A stretch of 64,000 nt of DNA from the NCBI RefSeq assembly GCF_003315245.1, contig NZ_QNRT01000001.1, positions 1,273,457 to 1,337,456 on the forward strand, read 5' to 3'. A model generated the notes under the pieces. The model was not told the origin of the DNA and did no database searches. It saw only the letters and a program-made list of their open reading frames with translations. Of this stretch, positions 26,541 to 38,732 are shown piece after piece. Every line of letters starts with the position of its first letter. The stretch's first letter is position 1. The translations under genes were made by a program, and so were the position numbers. This DNA is from Arenicella xantha. GTDB taxonomy: Bacteria; Pseudomonadota; Gammaproteobacteria; Arenicellales; Arenicellaceae.

Positions 26541-28376
26541 CTAAAGACAAATCATCGCCACCGCTTGATTAAGCGCCTTGAGTGCAAAGCACATCGATTC
26601 GACTGGCTCTAATTTCTGCAAGCTACCGGTATTAGCCGACACCACAAAGTCTGGACTACCGACCACATACAACTCGCCGTCTGGGCCTTCGCCAAAACCG
26701 GTAACATGCATACCCAGCGCCCGATTTAGTCTTAGCTCACGCATAGTGTCATTGGCATCAATATAGAACAGGCGACCATCAGGAGTGCCAAACCCGCGCC
26801 CCCAGTCACCAAACACATAATGACCGTTTAGCTGCGGTATTGCCGAGCCTCGATACACCTGACCGCCAATCACAGATATACCTTCACCGTGGTCGTACTC
26901 GACCACAGGGTCCATTAATGGGGGATGGGTTTGACCGTTCGGTGGCGTTTCACTTACGTAGGTTAAGCCATCGACTACGGAAAAATAGAAGCTACCCTCT
27001 TTGTAGTTCCATCCAAGGTTAGCGCCGGCGGCCGCAGATGGCACGCGGTTTATCTCTTCAATGGCGTCCTGCCCAACATCACCAATATACAAATCAAAAG
27101 CATTGCCTGTGCCTTGCTCAACGGCAAATCGATATGGGTTACGTAAACCGTAAACATAGATTTCATCTAAGCCTGTTTGTCCTACAAACGGATTATCGAT
27201 CGGTATGCCATATCGTCCATTGGCGGGCGCGGGAGCATCAATATCAATCCTAAGTATTGCCCCTAATGGCGAAGTAAAATCTCGAGCATTGCCGTCTAAC
27301 ACATGACCATCACCGGCATCGTTGGCGTTACCACCGTCGCCCAATGCTATAAATAGATAGCCTTGTGGCCCAAACTCGAGCATACCGCCATTGTGATTAT
27401 ACTGCGGCTGGTCGACAATCAATATGCTGCGCTTGTTATCTAATTGTGGCGACGCCGACATTGGACCTAACACTTGCCACTCGGTTACCACTGACATGTG
27501 GTCAGCCGCTTGCCCTGTCGGCATAGTCGAAAAATGTGCCGCTCCAGCTACATAAGGAGCTGAATAGTAAGTAATGATTTTGCGGTTATTGGCATAATCT
27601 GGATGAAAGGCAAAGCCTAATAGTCCACGCTCATCGTAGCCTGGAAAACCAGGAATTGGGCTACCATAATCAGCAACCAACTCGGCACTAAAGTCTAAAA
27701 ACAATTGCTTCTCACCGGTCGCCAACGCCACACGCCAAACCGAACCACCTTGCTCGACCACATACATGTGAGCTGGCTCATCGGGCGCGGTTAACGCTGC
27801 AACTGGCGCAGTAAAACCATTCGCAACAGTTTTCAAGCCCAGCTCCGGGCCTCCTTTAGTAATAGCCGTTGGTATTGGGTTGACGGTCGAGCAAGTTCGT
27901 TCAGTATCACCTTGATCAATCAACAAAGCGCACGGCAACGTTGTGGGCGGGCTAATTACTTTGCTTGGTGTAGCATCACCTCTAAAGCGAATTAGATTAA
28001 CCGCGCCTTGACGCCACCCGGGTTGCGCGCCGGCATTAATTTCCTGCAAAAAAGTCGGTGAGCCGCCATTATTTGGGTCACTTAACAGATCTTCAACATC
28101 TTCTAAGCTCGTCTTTAGGCGCTGCTCGAGATTAGAAATATTACTATTTAACCCATATAGTTCTCGTACTAGCCAACCATACCTATTCCAGCCATTACCG
28201 CCGCCACCGCGCTCGTGACACATCTGACAGACAGCATCATTTGATTGCGACTGACCACCGTACATGTCGCCCCACCAACCTAAATATTCATCACGCGCGC
28301 TGGCATTGTGTACACTCAATACCAATAGTAATCCGAGCGCTATAAAGCCCTTGATTATGTGCTTAAACCTACCCAT
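26541..28376 (-). CDS. PQQ-type sugar dehydrogenase-like propeller with haem c motif (module A)
   Basis: A 611-residue exported protein. The signal peptide (IALGLLLVLSVHNASA) is followed by a small haem-binding region with CQMCH (CxxCH, near residue 52). From about 190 a soluble-glucose-dehydrogenase/HHIP-like propeller begins: NHNGGMLEFGPQGYLFIALGDGG, YGLRNPYRF, GDVGQDAIEEINRV, LGWNYKEGSF. Such propellers use PQQ to oxidise sugars or related alcohols in the periplasm, and a fused or attached haem would accept the electrons. The protein ends in a cysteine pair spaced 14 residues apart, the second being penultimate (MICL). Last gene of module A; the 33-kb paralogue has the same plan. Confidence 0.8.
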   Translation of the reverse strand: MGRFKHIIKGFIALGLLLVLSVHNASARDEYLGWWGDMYGGQSQSNDAVCQMCHERGGGGNGWNRYGWLVRELYGLNSNISNLEQRLKTSLEDVEDLLSDPNNGGSPTFLQEINAGAQPGWRQGAVNLIRFRGDATPSKVISPPTTLPCALLIDQGDTERTCSTVNPIPTAITKGGPELGLKTVANGFTAPVAALTAPDEPAHMYVVEQGGSVWRVALATGEKQLFLDFSAELVADYGSPIPGFPGYDERGLLGFAFHPDYANNRKIITYYSAPYVAGAAHFSTMPTGQAADHMSVVTEWQVLGPMSASPQLDNKRSILIVDQPQYNHNGGMLEFGPQGYLFIALGDGGNANDAGDGHVLDGNARDFTSPLGAILRIDIDAPAPANGRYGIPIDNPFVGQTGLDEIYVYGLRNPYRFAVEQGTGNAFDLYIGDVGQDAIEEINRVPSAAAGANLGWNYKEGSFYFSVVDGLTYVSETPPNGQTHPPLMDPVVEYDHGEGISVIGGQVYRGSAIPQLNGHYVFGDWGRGFGTPDGRLFYIDANDTMRELRLNRALGMHVTGFGEGPDGELYVVGSPDFVVSANTGSLQKLEPVESMCFALKALNQAVAMICL

Positions 28377-28383
28377 TTAACGG

Positions 28384-30000
28384 CTAACTCAACAAGCTGG
28401 CAAACATACCGGCGGACTCAATAATTGCAGCTTCACCGATGTAGCCTGGAGCTGTACGCGGAAACACAACGCTGCCTGAATTAGGCGCAACCCAATCACA
28501 AACCGACGCGAACAGCGGATCAATGCTAGTGCGAGGATCAATATCGGGCGTATTTAGCGACAGGTCATCGTACTTATCAATTTCGGCTTCAGGGAATAAC
28601 TCTCCATACACACCACCATTAACTCGCTCGCCGATTACGAACATGATATTACCTTTACCGTGATCGGTACCACCATCCCCATTGTCGCGAATCTGTCGGC
28701 CAAATTCGCCAGCAACAGTAATCACCATTTTATCTAGGTCTAGTGAGTTCATTTCAGCCCACAATGCAGAAAAGCCACCATGTAGCGCATTGCCGTCGAC
28801 CGGAGTATTGCCGTACCGTCCACCAAAAATATCCTTGAAACCGTTTTCAATACCACGATTAAGATCGGGGTCATTAACATCTTGTGCGTTAGCACCTTGC
28901 CGCTGATCTCCATGGCTGTCCCAACCACCGTAACTCATAGACACAGCCCGAACGTCGAGTATGTGGTTAGCCGCGCACACGTCATAGAGATTGCGTATTT
29001 GTCGGCCAAATCCGTAGCCATTACGCAGTACTCGGCGTGCTTCATTATTGGCATTAGGGTTGACCGGAACGCCATCAATTGAAATAGCTCGATGCAACGC
29101 CTCTATATGCGGTGGTTCTGGTAAATCAGCCAATTGTTCTCGAATACGTCGACCAAACTCTCGGACCTTACTCTCATGATCCATGAATTTTTCGTACGCC
29201 TCACTGACCTGTTCGTTCCGTGCACCTTGATAGTAATTCTTGAGCGCCCGCGCCATTTTATCTTGTGGCCGATAAAACTGATTTTGCGTTAAATCGTACT
29301 CATTCAGCCCGATTTCGCGAGAGTTTTGCACCGCAATTAGGTCACGATTATCGATCGCATTATGATCATAGTTTGGAGCAAGCCCCTGTGGACCAAAGCA
29401 GAAACCACTAGGCGTATTAGTAACTGAAATCATATTACCGCCAGCGGAACGCGCTAACCTTCCGCCCCAACCAGAACGATCGCCATTATTCAGCCCAGAC
29501 AGTACGTTTCCTTGGTTTAGCTGCAACGTAGATAAGTCATGTGCTCGGTTAGTACCCCCCACGGCATTACACACAACCGCCACATTGCCAGCGCGAAACA
29601 TGTCGATTAACCAACCGGCCTCTCGCCAAATTCCAAACGTTACACCACTGTTGATATTCGCGGGATCTGCCAAACCACCAGTCCAGTTACCGGCACCGAC
29701 TGTGATCGGATAATAGTCATCATTCCAACGTTGCTGCCAGCTTGTTGGGTTCTCTGATAGATCATGCGATCGCCAGCGGTGACTCCAATACTGGTAACCA
29801 AAGCTATTGGTGTTACTGTCGAACTCCGGAACAATTAGATGGCGAAAATCCGGGCCGCCCTCTAACAATAGATTAACCAAGAGTCGGTTTTCTAAAGGCT
29901 CGAAACCAGCGATTGCATCGTTAACGAAACGCGGTAAAGAACCCGCTCCAAATAACAGACTTGTGTATAAAGATGATTGTAAAAATTGACGTCTATCCAT
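28384..30000 (-). CDS. DUF1501 protein, Tat-exported (module A)
   Basis: A 538-residue protein opening with a twin-arginine signal (DRRQFLQSSLYTSLLFGAG), so it is probably folded before export. DUF1501 proteins have a sulfatase/alkaline-phosphatase-like fold. Here GGWDSHGDQ and the C-terminal VAGEFGRQIRDNGDGGTDHGKG carry the Asp and His residues typical of the family metal site. The biochemical function of DUF1501 is not established. The gene lies two bases after the DUF1800 gene and seven before the propeller gene, so the three are one transcription unit. Confidence 0.88.
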   Translation of the reverse strand: MDRRQFLQSSLYTSLLFGAGSLPRFVNDAIAGFEPLENRLLVNLLLEGGPDFRHLIVPEFDSNTNSFGYQYWSHRWRSHDLSENPTSWQQRWNDDYYPITVGAGNWTGGLADPANINSGVTFGIWREAGWLIDMFRAGNVAVVCNAVGGTNRAHDLSTLQLNQGNVLSGLNNGDRSGWGGRLARSAGGNMISVTNTPSGFCFGPQGLAPNYDHNAIDNRDLIAVQNSREIGLNEYDLTQNQFYRPQDKMARALKNYYQGARNEQVSEAYEKFMDHESKVREFGRRIREQLADLPEPPHIEALHRAISIDGVPVNPNANNEARRVLRNGYGFGRQIRNLYDVCAANHILDVRAVSMSYGGWDSHGDQRQGANAQDVNDPDLNRGIENGFKDIFGGRYGNTPVDGNALHGGFSALWAEMNSLDLDKMVITVAGEFGRQIRDNGDGGTDHGKGNIMFVIGERVNGGVYGELFPEAEIDKYDDLSLNTPDIDPRTSIDPLFASVCDWVAPNSGSVVFPRTAPGYIGEAAIIESAGMFASLLS

Positions 30001-30002
30001 GA

Positions 30003-32498
30003 TTATTGGCCCTCCGCGAACACGTATGGTGTAGCAAAAATGAAGGCTATAGCTGCCTGTACACGCTCATTGGCGCGGCGCTTTTGTATCGCATCGCTAC
30101 TAGTCAGTGCTACTGGCGCAACGGCTAATTCAGCCATCAAACCTCTGAGATAAGGAAACGGATCTTGATTACTATTTTGCAACTCGTCACCACTGAAACT
30201 AAGCTCGAATGCTTGTCTTTCGTGCTCTGCGTAATTGGGCTCGCCGTCATAATTGAACAAGCAATAGTTGTTCCATGACTGAAACGACATAATATCGGCC
30301 AAACTGTTATTGGAAATACCATTTTCTCGGCGATCTTCTCGTATACACAACAAGAAATTAATATCGAAAAACGGATAACGTTGACCGATTTGCCAATAGT
30401 ATTCTGGATCTTCACCGGGAGTCGTATTTGCTAAACGGTTAGCTCCCAAAATTGCTAACAGGTGCGCGCGCTCTAATTCCGTATAGTTATCAAATGAGCC
30501 AACCGCATGCATCCATAGCCAGCGCGCCACGTAATCCGCGCTATAACCACCATTTACTGGTGGAATAATTTTGGTCCAATCCTTTTGCCAGGCCAAGCCC
30601 TGATCACAGGTTTCACATTCTATTGGTAGCTGATTTCGGAACTGCCATTCTTCAGGTGTAGCGCTACGGTTGTAGTTTTTCTCAAACGCCACCGCAGAAT
30701 CAGAGGCTTCTTGCGAGGTCTGGCCACCAAACACATTATGTAACGGCCGAAACACCTCATTTGAGTTGTCTCCCTCCAATACTCCGTCGACCTCACGACC
30801 AGCATTTCCATCGAGACCATTGTAATAATCGTTACTAAAAAACGCTTCGATATTATCAATATTGAACTTGTTAGCCGTATAAAAGGCGCGCTCAAAACTG
30901 GTTAAGTACTTGAATTGATCCGGGCTATGAAACAAGTTAGACGTCGCATAAATATGTATAAACGTGAGAAAATCCTTATTTGGCCCTAAAGCGGCCCACG
31001 CTGCCCGTATTTGATCTCGTCTCGCCTCATTCAAATTGTCATCCGCCAAATCACTGATAATGGTGACAGGTAAATTGAACAAACTTTCTGGATGCATGAT
31101 TGAAACTGGCATCAAGTTATCAATTTTGGCGCTGGCATCGCTACCAGTAATCGTCGTACCCAATATAGTTAAGTCATCTAGATGATGGCGTTCTTGCTCA
31201 AACGACACGCTGATATCAAACCCAAAGGTATCTATGTAGGGAACTCGCATATCGGTCAGCATTTTGGCTGTTTCACGAATCGTGCCATCTTCGTGATGTG
31301 GATCACTAGCGCCAAATATGCCATAGAACAATTGGTGAATTTCTCGCGCAAAGTCGTCATTGCACTCACAGACCCACTCACCATCTCGTTGTACCCACTG
31401 ATTCCGACGGTGGCCGTACTGCATAGCGACTGCCGCTGACTTAGCCGCCACACCCATTACTTCGTGATAAGGCAAGCGTGCCTCATGAGCCTGCATAATC
31501 TCATCATAGTACTGAACCATCTGCCGACGACTAACGCCTGCATCTAAGTTCGTGGCGAGGTGATAGTTGGTCTCCCAAAAACCAATGCGTTGGCGAAATG
31601 GATTTAATCCGCGCATAGCGATCATGCGACTAAACGTTGAATCGAAGCGATATCCATCAATCGACAGATACTCTCGTTGCTCAACCGGGATCGGGATATT
31701 TGAAGTGCTGGAACCGATGTAGTCAAAGAACCCGCGTAGCGTGCCATGTGAGTGTGCTGTCTCAGTATAGGTTTCACCGCGCGACATAGGGGATAAGCGC
31801 TGGTTATGCTCGTTGAAGTTCAGCATTTGAGTAATCGCCACTCGCGGCCGCATGTATGACCACTCGAGAATTTGGGCATCACTCGCATGACCACCAAAAG
31901 CAAATATCTTTAATACTTTGCGCACCGCTTGCTCATCCCAACCACTGCGCGTTAGCCTTTGGAGTCCGAGGCGTGTTTGCACTGCAGGCTCAATTCCAAC
32001 CCGCGATAGCCGTACCGTTGTTCCTGGGTTAACTGCGAATAGAAGCGTATTGGTGGCAAGCTGTTGATTAACCGGTAGCAGATAACAATTTTCACCGAGG
32101 GTCGCTTGGTTATCGGCCAATTGCGGTACACCATTAATGCTAAAACTGAAGTTGCCTGGGTTAAACGCACCGCTACGTTGCAATATAAAACAAACCTCAA
32201 TGTCGTGCGCCTGCGCGTCGAAAGTGGCTTCGAAATCACTACTAATGCTTACCGACGAGGACTCGAGCTGCCCTAGAGTGAGTTGGTAGGACGAAACTTG
32301 ATCTAGTAGATACAAGTTTATCACGCTCATGACTGCGGTTATTTTTTGCCGCTCGGCGTGATTGAGCTGAGCACTGGCAGGCAAAGTCGCTACCAGCATC
32401 AACATAATGATCAAAACCAATACCGTTGTTTTCAACCAGCGAATAGATAGATACACCGAAGACCAACCAACCCGCTTAGGGGCTAACATAGTAAGCAT
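30003..32498 (-). CDS. DUF1800 protein, exported (module A)
   Basis: An 831-residue protein with an N-terminal membrane/signal segment (TTVLVLIIMLMLVATLPASA). The DUF1800 core is recognised by FAFGGHASDAQILEW, NPFRQRIGFWETNYHLAT and the family-specific NDDFAREIHQLFYGIFG, followed by DGTIRETAKMLTDM. Cysteines fall in WVCECND (CxC) and CETCDQG (CxxC). The C-terminus is FIFATPYVFAEGQ. No enzymatic role is known for DUF1800; it is nearly always encoded next to DUF1501. This is the first gene of module A. The longest start is used; a shorter one after MLTML is possible. Confidence 0.85.
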   Translation of the reverse strand: MLTMLAPKRVGWSSVYLSIRWLKTTVLVLIIMLMLVATLPASAQLNHAERQKITAVMSVINLYLLDQVSSYQLTLGQLESSSVSISSDFEATFDAQAHDIEVCFILQRSGAFNPGNFSFSINGVPQLADNQATLGENCYLLPVNQQLATNTLLFAVNPGTTVRLSRVGIEPAVQTRLGLQRLTRSGWDEQAVRKVLKIFAFGGHASDAQILEWSYMRPRVAITQMLNFNEHNQRLSPMSRGETYTETAHSHGTLRGFFDYIGSSTSNIPIPVEQREYLSIDGYRFDSTFSRMIAMRGLNPFRQRIGFWETNYHLATNLDAGVSRRQMVQYYDEIMQAHEARLPYHEVMGVAAKSAAVAMQYGHRRNQWVQRDGEWVCECNDDFAREIHQLFYGIFGASDPHHEDGTIRETAKMLTDMRVPYIDTFGFDISVSFEQERHHLDDLTILGTTITGSDASAKIDNLMPVSIMHPESLFNLPVTIISDLADDNLNEARRDQIRAAWAALGPNKDFLTFIHIYATSNLFHSPDQFKYLTSFERAFYTANKFNIDNIEAFFSNDYYNGLDGNAGREVDGVLEGDNSNEVFRPLHNVFGGQTSQEASDSAVAFEKNYNRSATPEEWQFRNQLPIECETCDQGLAWQKDWTKIIPPVNGGYSADYVARWLWMHAVGSFDNYTELERAHLLAILGANRLANTTPGEDPEYYWQIGQRYPFFDINFLLCIREDRRENGISNNSLADIMSFQSWNNYCLFNYDGEPNYAEHERQAFELSFSGDELQNSNQDPFPYLRGLMAELAVAPVALTSSDAIQKRRANERVQAAIAFIFATPYVFAEGQ

Positions 32499-32769
32499 TT
32501 GCAGTTACCACTGTAGTTTGTAATTACATACACGAGCCAATACGGATGCTCGCATGAGTTATTTGTTAGTTCCCTACCACAGCAACCCCAAACTAAAACC
32601 AAATATAGTTTACCTTTAGTTAATAATTGACACCTGTCTGCTTTTCATCGACTGCACTGACGCTATGTGTCAATAGCGCAAAACTGCATAAACACTCGGT
32701 TTTTAGCACACATTCCATAGCGCTACTGGTGTTCGCCCTAGCGACAGTCCTATTTAGTGACAAAATCCG

Positions 32770-34584
32770 TCACAGACAAACCAGTGAAACGGCTTGTGTC
32801 TTAGTAATTATTGGGACGCAAAAATCTGGGTCTGCAGGGCAAACTGAGGTCTCTTCGACGGCGCTTGGAAAAGTGTGAGCCACCGAAGGATCAATCAGAC
32901 GAAGCAGTTTCCCATCAGCGCCAGCAGGACTGGTGAGATTGTTTGTGACCACATATAGCTCGTTTTCATTGTCTTGACCGAAACCAGTTATGTATCCAGA
33001 CAACTGATTCACCAACCGGAACTTACTAATCTGATTGTTTGACGGATTCAAATACAGCAACGGTTTAAGAAAATCACCGAATACATACTGACCAGCTAGC
33101 TCGGTGATTTCGGAACCTCGATACACATAACCACCAATCACGGAAATACCTTCATCATGATCATATTGACCAATTGGGTCGATTAAATCGTTGGGCGAAT
33201 TCGGGGAAGCTACCGAGCTTACATACGCATCAATACCAATAGTGGGCGTGTAGAAAAAGAAGCTGCCCTCCTTCCAATTCCAGCCATAGTTCCCGCCTTT
33301 AATGACCTTATTGATCTCCTCAACTTCGTATTGCCCCACGTCACCGGTATACAACTCACCAGTTGCCGCATCAAATGAGATGCGATAAGGATTACGAAAC
33401 CCATAAGCAAAAATTTCATCGATACCGGCGTTACCGTTGCCGACAAATGGGTTGTCAGCGGGGATTCCGTATTGACCATTGGCGGCATTATTGCTCAATG
33501 GCGCAATGCGCAAAATACTGCCCAGTATAGTGGTATTGTCACGCCCATTACCGAGTACACCATGCCCTGGCCCTAAGTCATTTCGGTTACCACCATCACC
33601 TAATGAGATGTACAGATGACCGTCGGCGCCGAATGCTATATCACCACCATTGTGGTTATTTTGCGGCTGATCAATACTCATCACGGTTCGGGTTTTACGA
33701 ATAGCTGAGTTGCAACTCGCATTTGAGGCGCGGTACTCGACCACCTTTGACCGGTGCAGTATCTCGCGGCCTGGCGGCATAGACACAGTAAAGTCAGCAC
33801 TCTCAGACTGATCGACCGGTTCCGACTGATACGTATAGAACAGGCCATTATTTTGATAATTTGGATGAAATGCTAAACCAAGTAGACCGCGTTCATCACC
33901 ATTTTGATTGATTGGCACCAAGTCGGCTTGCACAGTGTGAAATAAAGTTTTTTGCCCAGTTGCTAGCTCAACTCGATAAATACGACCAGTTTGTTCCACC
34001 ACAAAAATACTGCCGTTGATGCCTGGTGCACTAACGGCCCTGACCGGCGCATTAAAGCCACTGGCAACCTCGACTAAACCCAGGTCAATCGCACCGACTG
34101 GAATGTCTTCGGGGATCGGGTCTTCTAGCTTTGGTGGAAAATCGTAAGCGGTTGTTCCGGTCATCGGTAACGGTGCTGGTTGCTGATTGGTTGTTTCTAT
34201 TTCAGCATCACCAGCTTGATGGAACACTGAGTTGACCGCACCGTCACTCCAACCCGGTTGAAAATTACTGATAATTTCATCATACACCTCGGCTCCCAAA
34301 GGGTTGTTATCCAGCACCAATGCTTCGGTTAATATAAATGCCTCTTCAATGGTCGTTGCGTCATTACCTAAGAAGATTTCCCTTAGTTCCCAACCATAGG
34401 CATTCCAAGGAGAGCCCCCGTCAGCATTTTGATGACATAACTGGCACTGAATATCATCTGACGTAGAAGTCGGATAGTAATTTTGCCACGCGCCCAGATA
34501 GGCTAAACGGGCTTGAACCGTTGGGCTGGTGGTAAACATGGTTGAGCCAACAGCGATCGACAAGCACAAACAACGAAGTTTCAT
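32770..34584 (-). CDS. PQQ-type sugar dehydrogenase-like propeller with haem c motif (module B)
   Basis: A 604-residue paralogue of the 26541-28376 protein. It has a signal peptide, then CQLCH (CxxCH) near residue 47, and a propeller with NHNGGDIAFGADGHLYISLGDGG, YGFRNPYRISFD, GDVGQYEVEEINKV and YGWNWKEGSF. The C-terminal cysteine pair is again spaced 14 residues apart and ends VCL. The order haem motif, propeller, cysteine tail is identical in both copies, so it is probably functional. The start ATG is at 34584, 42 bp after the DUF1501 gene. The substrate is unknown; a PQQ-linked sugar or alcohol dehydrogenase is inferred. Confidence 0.8.
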   Translation of the reverse strand: MKLRCLCLSIAVGSTMFTTSPTVQARLAYLGAWQNYYPTSTSDDIQCQLCHQNADGGSPWNAYGWELREIFLGNDATTIEEAFILTEALVLDNNPLGAEVYDEIISNFQPGWSDGAVNSVFHQAGDAEIETTNQQPAPLPMTGTTAYDFPPKLEDPIPEDIPVGAIDLGLVEVASGFNAPVRAVSAPGINGSIFVVEQTGRIYRVELATGQKTLFHTVQADLVPINQNGDERGLLGLAFHPNYQNNGLFYTYQSEPVDQSESADFTVSMPPGREILHRSKVVEYRASNASCNSAIRKTRTVMSIDQPQNNHNGGDIAFGADGHLYISLGDGGNRNDLGPGHGVLGNGRDNTTILGSILRIAPLSNNAANGQYGIPADNPFVGNGNAGIDEIFAYGFRNPYRISFDAATGELYTGDVGQYEVEEINKVIKGGNYGWNWKEGSFFFYTPTIGIDAYVSSVASPNSPNDLIDPIGQYDHDEGISVIGGYVYRGSEITELAGQYVFGDFLKPLLYLNPSNNQISKFRLVNQLSGYITGFGQDNENELYVVTNNLTSPAGADGKLLRLIDPSVAHTFPSAVEETSVCPADPDFCVPIITKTQAVSLVCL

Positions 34585-34626
34585 CTATTCTTCTCGGTAA
34601 TCAAAATTGAAGTGAGGCATAAGCCG

Positions 34627-36258
34627 CTAGCTCATCAAGTTGTCAAACAAACCGGGTAACTCTAGCAATGGCGCCTCTCCGGCATAGCTCGAGGCCATAC
34701 GCGGAAACACAGCATTAGCCGAACCCGGCGCAACCCAATCACTGACCTTCGAAAAGAATGTGTCGATCTCACTGCGTGGGTCGATATCTGGTGTGCGTAA
34801 ACTAGTATTGTCGTATTTATCGACTTCGTCATCTGGAAACATTTCGCCATATACGCCACCACGCACACCTTCGCCCAATACCAACATTAGATTGCCTTTG
34901 CCATGATCCGTTCCAGCATCTCCGTTGTCGCGGATTTGTCGGCCAAACTCACCAGCGATAGTAATCACTATTTTATTGCGATCCGCTTGAGGTAAGCTCG
35001 CATATAGCGCAGAAAAGCCACTGTGAAAGGCTGACGCATCACTTGGGTTATTACCGTATTGACCACCGAAAATGTCTTTAAGACCATTCTCGATACCACG
35101 ACCAACATCAGGGTTGTGTGGATCTGAGGCCAAAATTGATGGCACTTGGCGTTGATTTCCGTGGCTATCCCAACTGCCATAACTCATCGACATTACACTC
35201 GGGGTTAACAAGTCATTGGCTGCCACAATGTCGTATAAATTACGGATTTGATAGCCCAAGTGCCGTTGACGTAATACGCGGCGCCCGGTACTACCTGAAT
35301 CATTCGGATCAATATTAATACCATTGATATTGCTGTATAACGCTTGAACTACATCAGGGATCGGAACCGTAACAAGTCGACCTTGAATGAGCTCACCAAA
35401 CTCGCGAACCTTGGCCTCATGGTCCATGAATTTTTGATACACACTGGCTACACGTTCTTGACGAAGTCCAGCGTAATAACTCTTCGCTGCACGCGCCATT
35501 TTGTCATCAAAATCGTAAAACTGATTTGACTCGATATTAAAATCAAACAAGCCTATATCACGCGAATCTTCTACAGAAATAAGATCAAAGTTGTCTATAG
35601 CATTTGGATTATAGTTTGGAGCTAACCCTTTAGGGCCAAAACAAAATGAACTTGGCGTGCTAGTCAAAGAAATAGAATTTCCGCCAGCTGATCGAGCTAC
35701 TCGGCCGCCCCAACCTGATCGGTCTCTATCGTTTAGCTCTGACAGAACATTGCCCTGACTCAACATTAAACTCGATAAATCGTGAGCCCGGTTGGTGCCG
35801 CCTACGGCATTGAATATTAACGCCCCATTACCGCTCCGCACCATATCGATTAACCAACCGGCTTCACGCCAAATACCAAACGTGGTGCCACCGTTGAGAT
35901 TGCCGGGGTCAACCATGCCGGACGACCATCCTTGGCCACCAACAGTAATTGGATAGTAATCTTGCTCCCATCGTTGTTGCGCGGTTACGCCGGTTGATGC
36001 TAGCTGGTGCGCACGATCTCGGTGTTTCCAATACTTTGCACCAAAACTATCCGGCGTTGAGTCATACGCCGGCACGATCAAATGCCGCAAATCTGGTCCG
36101 CCGCTTAAGTTCAAATTGACTAATAAGCGATTTTGTAACGGCGCTGGTAGCGCGCTGGCCGATGAAATCACCGATGGTAAGGCGCCAGTACCATACAATA
36201 GACCACTGCAGAGCGCAGATTGAAGAAACTGTCTTCGACTAAAATTGTTCGTATTCAT
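34627..36258 (-). CDS. DUF1501 protein, Tat-exported (module B)
   Basis: A 543-residue paralogue of the module A DUF1501 protein. The twin-arginine signal is SRRQFLQSALCSGLLYGTG. Shared blocks include AGWLIDM, NAVGGTNRAHDLS, RDRSGWGGR, the GSWDSHGNQRQ block and VITIAGEFGRQIRDNGDAGTDHGKG. Its start overlaps the stop of the DUF1800 gene by one base, so translation is coupled. Whatever the metal-dependent activity is, it is duplicated along with its partners. The two copies are clearly related along their full length by eye. Confidence 0.88.
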   Translation of the reverse strand: MNTNNFSRRQFLQSALCSGLLYGTGALPSVISSASALPAPLQNRLLVNLNLSGGPDLRHLIVPAYDSTPDSFGAKYWKHRDRAHQLASTGVTAQQRWEQDYYPITVGGQGWSSGMVDPGNLNGGTTFGIWREAGWLIDMVRSGNGALIFNAVGGTNRAHDLSSLMLSQGNVLSELNDRDRSGWGGRVARSAGGNSISLTSTPSSFCFGPKGLAPNYNPNAIDNFDLISVEDSRDIGLFDFNIESNQFYDFDDKMARAAKSYYAGLRQERVASVYQKFMDHEAKVREFGELIQGRLVTVPIPDVVQALYSNINGINIDPNDSGSTGRRVLRQRHLGYQIRNLYDIVAANDLLTPSVMSMSYGSWDSHGNQRQVPSILASDPHNPDVGRGIENGLKDIFGGQYGNNPSDASAFHSGFSALYASLPQADRNKIVITIAGEFGRQIRDNGDAGTDHGKGNLMLVLGEGVRGGVYGEMFPDDEVDKYDNTSLRTPDIDPRSEIDTFFSKVSDWVAPGSANAVFPRMASSYAGEAPLLELPGLFDNLMS

Positions 36259-38732
36259 TATTGACCCTCCGCGAAAACGAATGGCGTAGTAAAAATAAAT
36301 CCAAGTGCATTACTTATGCGTTCTCGAGCGTGTTTGCGGAGTTCTGCACCGCCATTGCTACCATCTGTGGTTTCCAACGGTAAGGTCATATTCCCTAGTT
36401 GGCTTAATAAGTCTTGTGCGGTTGGGTTTTCCATGATTTGTTGACCGCTATACACACGATTAAGTGCCGCACGCTCAACACTACTGTAGCCACTTACATC
36501 GTCGTCATTCTGACGACAATAATTGTCCCAATTTCCTTGATACAACATGTCTGAGAGCGGTACAGAGTTGGTCTCTTCTTTGACCTTGTAGTCCTCAGCC
36601 ATACACATGAGTAGATTGAAATCCATCGCGTAGTCACCGTCGCTAGTTTGGTTAGGATTATTCCTTGCCGCGCCCAAAAAGGAATAGAGATGCGCTTTTT
36701 CTAGCTCAGTGTAATTATCAAAGTTTCCTACCGCGTGGTTCCACAACCAAGCCGCCACATCGGCCACATAAAACTGATTGTCGGCACGGCGTGGTAATAC
36801 GGTACTCCACTTTTTCTCCCAGGGCTGGCCTTGGTCACAACTACTACACGACACGGCATCGCGAATTCGATACTCATCATCGGTAAGCAGATTGAAATTA
36901 TTCTCAAAGGCCAATGCCGAATCTGATGCTTCATACGATGTTTGCGCCCCGAAAACGTTGTGCAATGGTCGAAAAAACTCTCCTGCGGCGTCATCGGATA
37001 TTACCGACCCAACCGACTTGCCCGCTCTACCGCTGTAGCTTGCGCCACCGAAAAATGCTTCTAGATTATCGAGGTTGTGCTTGTTTGCCATATACAAAGC
37101 ACGTTCGTGTGAAGTGAAGTACTTAAATTGAGCTTTACTATGAAATAACGTAGATATTGCGTAGGCGCGAATAAAATCCAGAAAGACTTTGTTTTGCCCC
37201 ATACCAGCCCACGCAGCTCGAATCTTATCAGCCTTCGCATCAGACATGTTGTCGTCAGCTAGTACTGAGATAATCATTACCGGCAAATTCTTCAGACTCT
37301 CTGGATGCATAATCGAGATCGGCATTAAGTTGTCGATTTTTTGACTAGCATCAGTGCCGCTGATTGTGTGACCTAAAATAGTTAAATCGTCAGTGTGATG
37401 ACGGCTAGTGCCGAATACCACGGCAATGTTGTCGTTTGGTCCATCGGTATTATCAATCGGCATATCCGTTAGCATTTTAGATGTCTCGCGGATTGTTCCA
37501 TCTTCGTGGTGCGGATCGTCTACCCCAAAGATTCCGTAAAATAGCTGATGAATCTCACGCGCAAAATCATCGTTACACTTACAAATATAGTCATCAAGGT
37601 TTCGATCATAAACCCATTGATTGCGGTCATGACCATACTGCTCAGCAACCGCCGCAGACTTGGCCGCCACGCCCATTACCTGGTGATAAGGAATTCCTGA
37701 CTCATGAGCGTCCATGATAATGTCGTAGTAGGCAGCAATTTGGTCACGATCCACGCTGGCATCACGGTTAACCGCCAAATGATAATTGGTTTCCCAAAAC
37801 CCAATTCGCTGACGAAATGGGTTTAGTCCACGCACGGTAATCATGCGACCGTAAGCATCATCAAAGTTATAACCATTGAGCCCATATTGAGTTCGGTTTG
37901 CTACCGGAATAGGTAAATTTGAACTCGAGCTAGACAGGTAATTTTGAAACCCAAGGAGTGTACCAATTCCTGGTTCGGTGGTTGTTTCAGTGTAGTTTTC
38001 ACCAACGGCAAGCGGTGAAAGCTTTAAGTTATGCTTGTCAAAATTAAGCATCTCTACAATCGCTAACTCCGGATCCAGATCGGCCCACAAACGAATTTGC
38101 GCGTCGCGCGCATGACCACCAAAGGCAAATATCTTAAGAACTTTACGCACCGCCCTTTCATTCCATTGTCCACGTGTCAGTCGATTAAAACCACCAACTG
38201 ATTGTGCGGTAGCGGCGAGTTCAACGCGCGACACAGAGATTGTTACGCCAGGTGTTGAGGTTGAAATAACAATGTAATTGATCAGCCGCTGATCGGGCTC
38301 GGTAATCAGGTAACAATTATCCTTGCCGATAACGCCAAGCGCCGGTTCGCCATTAACGGCAACCGAAATATCAGCATTGTTGGCATTACTGGAAGTTAAA
38401 TCAAAACACAGTTCAATCGCTTGATCTTGCAGCTCAAACTGTGCGAACACTGGCTGAGTATTGGAAACCTGAAACGTTCCATTCACTAACTCGTTCAAAT
38501 CCAACTCGACAGCCGTACCAATTGGCCTAGCAATTGGCTCTTCTCGCCCAATGAGTAGATAGGAGTTGATGACACTCATAATAGCGGCTAATTGCTTGTC
38601 TTGATCACTAGCTTGCGCATGTGAAGTCGACGCAAAACTGATGGAGATCAGCAATAACAAAGCGGGTCGACTGAGTAGCCTAAGCAGTTGCCTATAGTGG
38701 GTCAAGCGACCGCGAACCAGCAAACTTTTCAT
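36258..38732 (-). CDS. DUF1800 protein, exported (module B)
   Basis: An 824-residue paralogue of the module A DUF1800 protein. The signal region is LLLLISISFASTSHA. It shares FAFGGHARDAQIRLW, NPFRQRIGFWETNYHLAV, YICKCNDDFAREIHQLFYGIFG, CSSCDQGQPWEKKW and the C-terminus FIFTTPFVFAEGQ with that copy. The CxC and CxxC cysteines are conserved between the copies while nearby sequence has changed, which suggests structural or metal-binding importance. It is the first gene of module B; the 235-bp region between it and pepN should hold the promoter. Confidence 0.85.
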   Translation of the reverse strand: MKSLLVRGRLTHYRQLLRLLSRPALLLLISISFASTSHAQASDQDKQLAAIMSVINSYLLIGREEPIARPIGTAVELDLNELVNGTFQVSNTQPVFAQFELQDQAIELCFDLTSSNANNADISVAVNGEPALGVIGKDNCYLITEPDQRLINYIVISTSTPGVTISVSRVELAATAQSVGGFNRLTRGQWNERAVRKVLKIFAFGGHARDAQIRLWADLDPELAIVEMLNFDKHNLKLSPLAVGENYTETTTEPGIGTLLGFQNYLSSSSSNLPIPVANRTQYGLNGYNFDDAYGRMITVRGLNPFRQRIGFWETNYHLAVNRDASVDRDQIAAYYDIIMDAHESGIPYHQVMGVAAKSAAVAEQYGHDRNQWVYDRNLDDYICKCNDDFAREIHQLFYGIFGVDDPHHEDGTIRETSKMLTDMPIDNTDGPNDNIAVVFGTSRHHTDDLTILGHTISGTDASQKIDNLMPISIMHPESLKNLPVMIISVLADDNMSDAKADKIRAAWAGMGQNKVFLDFIRAYAISTLFHSKAQFKYFTSHERALYMANKHNLDNLEAFFGGASYSGRAGKSVGSVISDDAAGEFFRPLHNVFGAQTSYEASDSALAFENNFNLLTDDEYRIRDAVSCSSCDQGQPWEKKWSTVLPRRADNQFYVADVAAWLWNHAVGNFDNYTELEKAHLYSFLGAARNNPNQTSDGDYAMDFNLLMCMAEDYKVKEETNSVPLSDMLYQGNWDNYCRQNDDDVSGYSSVERAALNRVYSGQQIMENPTAQDLLSQLGNMTLPLETTDGSNGGAELRKHARERISNALGFIFTTPFVFAEGQ

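Follow-up and report, generated by a model that had tools for sequence, protein, structure and literature searches.

Two DUF1800–DUF1501–monohaem propeller triads in Arenicella xantha and their restriction to one lineage

Results

Locus layout

The window, a 64,000-nucleotide stretch of the Arenicella xantha contig NZ_QNRT01000001.1, holds two triads on the minus strand between positions 26,541 and 38,732, each with the gene order DUF1800, DUF1501 and a monohaem protein with a GSDH-type propeller (Table 1). The original prediction of two such modules (A, 5,958 bp; B, 5,963 bp) was borne out by six open reading frames at exact positions, with neighbouring genes within the triads spaced from a 1-base overlap up to 42 bp. 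All three families passed their curated Pfam cut-offs in both modules (DUF1800, PF08811, 31.0/33.6 bits, cut-off 26.1; DUF1501, PF07394, 47.6/51.7 bits, cut-off 27; GSDH, PF07995, 105.2/129.2 bits, cut-off 25), and the scores of 31–52 bits mark the DUF1800 and DUF1501 proteins as divergent family members. The predicted export signals agree with the N-termini as read by eye, with Tat-like leaders (RRQFL) on both DUF1501 proteins and Sec-type leaders on the other four, and each haem protein carries the single CxxCH motif ascribed to it. Consensus scans gave no excess of promoters (13; shuffle mean, 19.8) or terminators (13; shuffle mean, 12.5), and a Pfam search of four flanking proteins in the window revealed no polysaccharide gene.

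Table 1. Genes and features of the two triads, in window positions.
Feature	Position	Strand	Basis
DUF1800 protein, module B (P0006, 824 aa, Sec-type leader)	36258..38732	-	ORF + Pfam
DUF1501 protein, module B (P0005, 543 aa, RRQFL Tat-like leader)	34627..36258	-	ORF + Pfam
Monohaem-GSDH propeller protein, module B (P0004, 604 aa)	32770..34584	-	ORF + Pfam
CQLCH haem-attachment motif, module B (P0004)	34432..34446	-	CQxCH invariant in 7-row alignment
C-terminal tail CVPI...SLVCL, module B (P0004)	32773..32820	-	Sequence
Gap between modules A and B, 271 bp	32499..32769		Promoter/terminator scan no better than shuffles
DUF1800 protein, module A (P0003, 831 aa, Sec-type leader)	30003..32498	-	ORF + Pfam
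DUF1501 protein, module A (P0002, 538 aa, RRQFL Tat-like leader)	28384..30000	-	ORF + Pfam
Monohaem-GSDH propeller protein, module A (P0001, 611 aa)	26541..28376	-	ORF + Pfam
CQMCH haem-attachment motif, module A (P0001)	28215..28229	-	CQxCH invariant in 7-row alignment
C-terminal tail CFAL...AMICL, module A (P0001)	26544..26591	-	Sequence

The modules are diverged, as first proposed, with A and B sharing 53% identity in DUF1800, 62% in DUF1501 and 44% in the haem-GSDH protein; their near-equal length means little because the genes are homologous. A and B are old paralogues and form separate clades in the trees of all three genes. A third triad lies outside the window in the same genome (G000; L039:6293-12327(-), contig C2 at about 184.8–190.8 kb), and a triad from genome G002 groups with A in the DUF1800 tree and with B in the haem-GSDH tree.

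Distribution of the haem gene

Across the genus and its relatives, the haem gene lies 3′ of DUF1501 in 25 of 29 loci, counting DUF1501 genes that are followed by 1.1 kb of DNA or more. The full DUF1800–DUF1501–haem order occurs in 20/22 loci of the window's subfamily and 5/7 of the classic one, and the haem gene is absent at the four exceptions (L052, L053, L054 and L058). Three relatives (L004, L006 and L055) encode a propeller-free haem protein of 165–175 aa, and at one locus (L111 of G003) a haem-GSDH gene stands without DUF1800 or DUF1501 alongside. The constant component of the third gene is the haem domain, the propeller being optional, and inside the lineage this gene is a genuine partner of the pair.

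Class-wide, DUF1800 was found in at least 26 of 185 sampled genomes, a lower bound because this profile search did not detect the divergent copies in the window itself. An adjacent DUF1501 gene was present at 33 of 35 DUF1800 loci, which were drawn from 26 genomes and hence are not all independent, and a haem or haem-GSDH gene at none of the 35 (E 1e-3). No haem gene lay 3′ of DUF1501 at the 28 of these 33 pairs where the downstream sequence reached 1.1 kb. The 50 proteins just downstream of class-wide pairs had no recurrent partner among the 25 of 79 Pfam families listed, apart from a sigma-70 region-4 domain in two; a weaker single GSDH match could be hidden among the families beyond these 25. 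The original prediction held that the pair is constantly coupled to a PQQ-type propeller, a claim to be abandoned if the propeller proved rarely adjacent in other genomes. The survey of neighbourhoods found exactly this (0/28 class-wide against 25/29 in the lineage, where some third genes lack the propeller), and constant coupling across the class was rejected. The triad layout itself stands, but as a variant confined to one lineage and not as a general rule. Because the pair manages without a haem partner across the wider class, its core function is probably not redox chemistry.

Propeller residues and PQQ

Active-site residues were compared among 21 distinct propeller proteins using YliI numbering. 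The catalytic Arg214 is kept in all 21, His147 in 20 and Asn215 in 20; both window propellers have the catalytic His and the neighbouring Arg, and in the propeller of the third triad Asn replaces the catalytic His and Asn215 is also lost. The residues K314, R341, R343 and D358 of YliI, which we take to be PQQ-ligand positions by analogy with sGDH, are absent from both window proteins, with K314 and D358 kept in 0/21 and R341 and R343 in 1/21 each. The PQQ biosynthesis marker pqqC (TIGR02111) matched in 0/18 genus genomes, 1/41 of all genomes searched and 0/14 controls, though synthesis by the host is not strictly required for a PQQ-dependent enzyme. The closest solved relative of the window propellers is HHIP (E 5.8e-46), from which the Arg-Asn kept in the window propellers is absent in the alignment. 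The earlier assignment to PQQ-type dehydrogenases agrees with the GSDH match and with the mostly kept catalytic residues, but not with the YliI ligand positions, the His of the third copy or pqqC in the genus, and PQQ use is at most a candidate function.

Haem domain and C-terminal tail

CxxCH is invariant across the 7 rows of the haem-domain alignment and the genome has CcmF, which acts in c-type cytochrome maturation, a combination that points to a c-type cytochrome; no second axial His or Met is conserved in the same 7 rows. The haem domain is weakly homologous to two multihaem proteins (L159 and L161), P0012 and P0013 match a dihaem family below that family's cut-off, and haem domains also cap PKD-repeat proteins. 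The same type of tail (16–17 residues; C-x-P-[IV]...[IV]CL-stop) closes every one of the 23 complete haem proteins of triad type. It recurs on secreted proteins of the genus that are otherwise unrelated, among them propellers, a TSP3 protein and a metalloprotease-like protein, and in those tagged proteins that were scanned neither Pfam nor NCBIfam gave a match covering it. The tail resembles a C-terminal sorting tag, as yet without a name, and a literature search combining Arenicella with C-terminal sorting found no paper joining the two. Some genomes with DUF1800–DUF1501 pairs yielded no tail, and in one genome (G028) the tail is present with no DUF1501 detected.

DUF1501 and DUF1800 proteins

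Six DUF1501 residues (H159, D364, H366, R440, D451 and H452) are invariant in 60 rows and form a metal-site-like set. In a Foldseek search with the DUF1501 model, 33 of the 50 matches listed were sulfatases, phosphopentomutases or members of their superfamily (best E, 0.4), with mean pLDDT values for this model (44.1) and the DUF1800 model (56.5) too poor for a fold call. Profiles of both families had no match among the sequences of solved structures (PDB), even at E 10. The DUF1800 model of module B has an N-terminal beta-sandwich (about residues 73–174) followed by helices. The sandwich matches jelly-roll-like domains (best E, 3.5e-3); among the 50 matches listed, the top ones were the receptor-binding domain of clostridial enterotoxin, 8 were carbohydrate-related (BcsB, rhamnogalacturonan lyase, CBM36 and xylanase-CBM6) and others were collagen-binding, GOLD or CUB domains. 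DUF1501 adjoins planctomycete-type PSCyt/PSD cytochromes; a search for PSD1 (PF07587) matched 0/150 genomes but also 0/14 controls, so that it carries no weight either way. The excerpts of PMC5122149, PMC5615132, PMC4452313, PMC4982196, PMC4133262, PMC6881789 and PMC6881810 contain no tested function for DUF1800 or DUF1501.

Discussion

The reading we favour, at a probability of roughly 30%, is an extracytoplasmic saccharide-modifying DUF1501/DUF1800 pair that recruited a surface haem-propeller redox protein. A widespread exported pair (Tat DUF1501 and Sec DUF1800) would have gained a third gene in this lineage, encoding a putative c-type monohaem protein. In most cases this protein is joined to a six-bladed GSDH/HHIP-type propeller, and the shared C-terminal Cys-Leu tail would probably display it at the surface. 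The DUF1501 protein would most likely be an alkaline-phosphatase-like, metal-dependent hydrolase or transferase with an extracytoplasmic saccharide as its substrate, the DUF1800 protein may bind or present the same saccharide, and the haem-propeller protein may oxidise or bind the same class of glycan, with electrons passing through the haem. Consistent with this are the gene order at 25/29 loci, the separate A/B clades, the invariant DUF1501 residues, the carbohydrate-related DUF1800 matches, CxxCH with CcmF, Arg214/His147 and the tail on 23/23 proteins. The excerpts of two papers add that DUF1800–DUF1501 is found beside bacterial chitin synthases (PMC5122149) and that verrucomicrobial PSCyt genes carry CBMs and lie near sulfatases (PMC5615132). 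Arguing against it are the poor models and lack of a PDB match, the majority of DUF1800 matches that are not carbohydrate-binding, the lack of a conserved second axial ligand, the loss of the YliI Lys/Asp and of the third-copy His, HHIP as closest relative, the class-wide pair without haem and the lack of a flanking polysaccharide gene.

Slightly less probable, and likewise tentative, is that the haem-propeller protein is a non-enzymatic, HHIP-like surface adhesin or scaffold, with DUF1800 and DUF1501 as maturation or assembly factors for it and for other surface proteins. HHIP as closest solved relative, a tail common to other large secreted proteins, the haem domains capping PKD-repeat proteins and the His lost from the third copy all fit such a role, but the Arg-Asn absent from HHIP is kept in the window proteins, the pair is present in genomes without a detected tail, and G028 has the tail without a detected DUF1501.

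It seems improbable that the propeller works as a genuine PQQ-dependent sugar dehydrogenase, with the haem as built-in electron acceptor as in fungal AA12 pyranose dehydrogenase and with DUF1800 and DUF1501 serving the same oxidation. The GSDH match exceeds its cut-off, YliI His147, Arg214 and Asn215 are largely kept, and AA12 enzymes, according to the excerpts of PMC4133262 and PMC6881789, use PQQ without several sGDH PQQ ligands, the fungal pyranose dehydrogenase CcPDH carrying a haem (cytochrome) domain. Set against these are pqqC in 0/18 genus genomes, the Lys314 and Asp358 positions lost in all 21 propellers with Arg341 and Arg343 nearly so, a third copy without His and Asn, HHIP as best solved relative and a pair that runs without a propeller across the class. 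Least likely of all is a lineage-specific passenger functionally unlinked to the pair, which would suit the 28/28 class-wide loci where no third gene was found, the four lineage loci missing it, the solitary haem-GSDH gene of G003 and the discordant G002 triad, but which sits poorly with adjacency to DUF1501 at 25/29 loci in two subfamilies, A/B separation in all three trees and the tight spacing in the window.

DUF1800 and DUF1501 are exported families without known function, the former in at least 26/185 sampled genomes of the class, and a lineage that ties both to a haem protein, with three divergent copies in one genome, offers a redox handle and a genetic test. The tail, if a true sorting tag, raises a new question on how these bacteria build their surface. 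A bolder and rather doubtful extension of the saccharide-modifying reading is that an undescribed tag (roughly C-x-P-[IV]-x(9-10)-[ILV]-C-L-COOH), which may form a disulfide clasp, brings about six or more proteins per genome to the surface in Arenicella and a few other gammaproteobacteria, and that the triads are a surface redox module in which a tagged haem-propeller electron carrier works with a DUF1800–DUF1501 glycan-modifying pair.

Compared with known systems, the triads share families, order and a Tat-like DUF1501 with the two-gene DUF1800–DUF1501 operons (PF08811 and PF07394), but the window members are divergent and the third, haem gene has no counterpart at the class-wide loci. HHIP is the best solved sequence match to the propeller, whereas the Arenicella proteins add an N-terminal haem domain and keep Arg-Asn. 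GlyGly-CTERM and MYXO-CTERM tags are tripartite, with a signature, a hydrophobic helix and a basic end. Like these tags, the tail is short, C-terminal and carried by many secreted proteins of one lineage that are otherwise unrelated; unlike them, its 16–17 residues end in Cys-Leu without the helix and basic end. Fungal AA12 CcPDH also joins a haem domain to a six-bladed GSDH-like propeller with a His and Arg-Asn site, but in the excerpts of PMC4133262 and PMC6881789 its haem domain is a cytochrome b (AA8) and its PQQ use is proven, whereas the Arenicella proteins have CxxCH and PQQ as a candidate only. Planctomycete PSCyt/PSD proteins likewise couple c-type haem to exported proteins of unknown function in a CBM and sulfatase context, whereas in Arenicella the haem resides in a separate third protein.

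Gene order and distribution of the triads

The triad of DUF1800, a Tat-like DUF1501, and a haem protein with one CxxCH motif and a GSDH propeller (haem-GSDH) is a real, well-conserved, lineage-specific operon variant. ORFs and Pfam matches placed two minus-strand triads (modules A and B; Table) in the window, exactly as the original prediction described them. Gene spacing is tight in both: in module B, DUF1800 and DUF1501 overlap by one base and the haem gene starts 42 bases past DUF1501, and in module A, 2 bases separate DUF1800 from DUF1501 and the haem gene starts 7 bases past DUF1501. A strongly diverged third triad occurs in the same genome, where haem domains (n = 3) equal in number the DUF1501 genes of the window's subfamily (n = 3), one of two subfamilies of DUF1800-DUF1501 loci, the other being the classic subfamily.

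Related loci (n = 7) were found in three Arenicella and four other gammaproteobacterial MAGs, and all 18 Arenicella genomes searched had at least one DUF1501 match. Gene order was scored in the genus and its relatives for 31 DUF1501 genes; two at contig ends (L002, L008) were dropped, and each of the remaining 29 had 1.1 kb or more of downstream sequence. A haem gene occurred within 600 bp of DUF1501 in 25/29 loci, counting for both pairs the gene that lies between two convergent pairs at L006. By subfamily, this amounted to 20/22 for the window's, to which L052 and L053 were assigned despite a slightly higher score with the mixed profile, and 5/7 for the classic. No haem gene was found within this distance at L052, L053 (both genome G031), L054 (G003), and L058 (G029). 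Across a class-wide sample (n = 185 genomes), DUF1800 was detected in at least 26 genomes; in a six-frame search, DUF1501 adjoined it at 33 of 35 loci, the remaining two stopping at contig edges, while a haem or haem-GSDH gene was found at 0/35 (28 of the 33 paired loci had at least 1.1 kb downstream). The pair is therefore general and the third gene lineage-specific, and the constant coupling to a propeller originally proposed as a rule fails in this survey of gene neighbourhoods.

Coordinates of triads, haem-domain proteins, tails, and long ORFs (unprefixed positions, window; L-numbers, stretches fetched from genomes)
Feature	Coordinates	Strand	Content
Module B	38732-32770	-	DUF1800, DUF1501, haem-GSDH genes
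Module A	32498-26541	-	DUF1800, DUF1501, haem-GSDH genes
Third triad, window's genome	L039:6293-12327	-	DUF1800-DUF1501-haem-GSDH
Haem domain capping PKD-repeat proteins	L156:9045-10940; L157:8755-10920; L158:7362-9248		Other gammaproteobacterial families
Multihaem protein	L159:1697-4741		24 CxxCH
Multihaem protein	L159:8244-10718		10 CxxCH; weak haem-domain match
Multihaem protein	L161:4546-8826		14 CxxCH; weak haem-domain match
Tail, module A haem protein	26544-26591
Tail, module B haem protein	32773-32820
Tail-bearing proteins elsewhere	L039:13873-16458; L055:12985-16311; L163:199-1728
Adjacent ORFs with similar tail layouts	L110:950-6240		Three ORFs, 500-530 aa
Very long DUF1800 ORFs	L123:8042-12499; L135:4746-9596		1,485 aa; 1,616 aa

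Origin of the tandem modules

In trees of DUF1501, DUF1800, and haem-GSDH, module A grouped with G015, G013, and G011 (and G005 where the gene was present) and module B with G008, G012, G003, G014, G004, G001, and G010. Support for the A grouping was only moderate for DUF1501 (87/82 and 91/91). This separation into multi-genome groups indicates an old split and rules out recent duplication as the origin of the tandem. Among the genomes in the trees, only the window's has both modules, though drafts may miss copies. The long-branched triad of G002 was discordant, placed with A by DUF1800 and with B by haem-GSDH, and haem-GSDH genes adjoining classic pairs formed a separate clade.

The haem domain and the C-terminal tail

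The constant part of the third gene is the haem domain. Three loci (L004, L006, L055) encode proteins of 165-175 aa that carry the domain and a tail without a propeller. The domain occurred in six of the 185 class-sample genomes, of which four were not Arenicella; for G166, G121, and G085 among those four, the best match caps a PKD-repeat protein without the tail, and neither DUF1800 nor DUF1501 was found within the fetched stretches. CQxCH, W39-N40, Y42-G43, and P89-G90-W91 were among the invariant positions of a seven-row alignment, in which no second axial Met or His was invariant. Weaker matches in multihaem proteins (L159, L161) support haem attachment by homology.

All 20 complete haem proteins of the fetched loci, both window proteins, and a lone copy (L111) finish with a motif of 16-17 residues that contains two Cys and has Leu as its last residue (rough pattern across tagged proteins, C-x-P-[IV]-x(9-10)-[ILV]-C-[LI]-stop); two further proteins are cut by contig ends (L042, L048). 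When 41 genomes were searched with a profile built from 21 tails (A8), 105 matches reached E <= 1e-3, though many training tails came from the searched genomes and some matches lie within very short open frames. Arenicella accounted for 102 (17/18 genomes; eight in the window's; the G014 haem gene is cut by a contig end) and G028 for three; at this threshold, none of the remaining 22 non-Arenicella genomes had a match. The full two-Cys tail ended an ORF in 18/20 stretches fetched around matches; L099 lacked the first Cys and L098 a called ORF ending in the tail. In the class sample, matches were confined to two Arenicella genomes and G163 (3/185 in all), and the G163 tail has CI as its last two residues.

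The tail is common to unrelated secreted proteins across the genus, including a delta-60 propeller, PD40 propellers, a TSP3-repeat protein of reprolysin-like type, and a 'choice-of-anchor Q' protein. In those scanned, it lay outside every Pfam and NCBIfam match; we infer a putative role in sorting. The tagged delta-60-repeat protein of the window's genome lies ~1.5 kb from the third triad. Tail and pair are probably separable, since G028 has the tail but yielded no DUF1501 in a search that divergent copies could escape, and in G031, which has the pair, no tail match was better than E = 0.667. Two of the three adjacent L110 ORFs lack the Cys-Leu end; the tail layouts of the three are perhaps relatives of the tag.

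Predicted folds and comparison with known dehydrogenases

Invariant residues were H159, D364, H366, R440, D451, and H452 in DUF1501 (60 rows; numbering of the module B protein) and R392, E393, and L397 in DUF1800 (54 rows). AlphaFold models were weak (pLDDT 44.1 and 56.5, respectively). Among the best 50 Foldseek rows listed for DUF1501, 33 belonged to the alkaline-phosphatase superfamily (best E = 0.4). The sandwich part of DUF1800 resembled jelly-roll-like domains, with the receptor-binding domain of an enterotoxin as top rows and eight carbohydrate-related among the best 50 listed; none of the 50 had E < 3.5e-3. Together with published gene neighbourhoods, these matches tentatively hint that both proteins may be saccharide-related. 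Extra domains are suggested to be fused in the very long DUF1800 ORFs of L123 and L135.

The best solved relative of the propeller is HHIP. Compared with YliI of E. coli, which is annotated as an aldose sugar dehydrogenase, 21 distinct haem-GSDH proteins kept Arg214 (21/21), His147 (20/21), and Asn215 (20/21), the sole exception being the third copy in the window's genome, with Asn at the catalytic His position and Ser at that of Asn215. Gln82 was replaced by Glu (21/21), Arg341 and Arg343 were kept in one protein each, and Lys314 and Asp358 in none. PqqC was detected in 0/18 genus genomes by a search that found it in G021 but in 0/14 controls. The PQQ reading of the propeller does not stand as given, with Arg214 and His147 in its favour and Lys314, Asp358, and PqqC against it. 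The genus could still scavenge PQQ, and in AA12 enzymes, according to two reports (PMC4133262, PMC6881789), missing sGDH ligands do not exclude PQQ.
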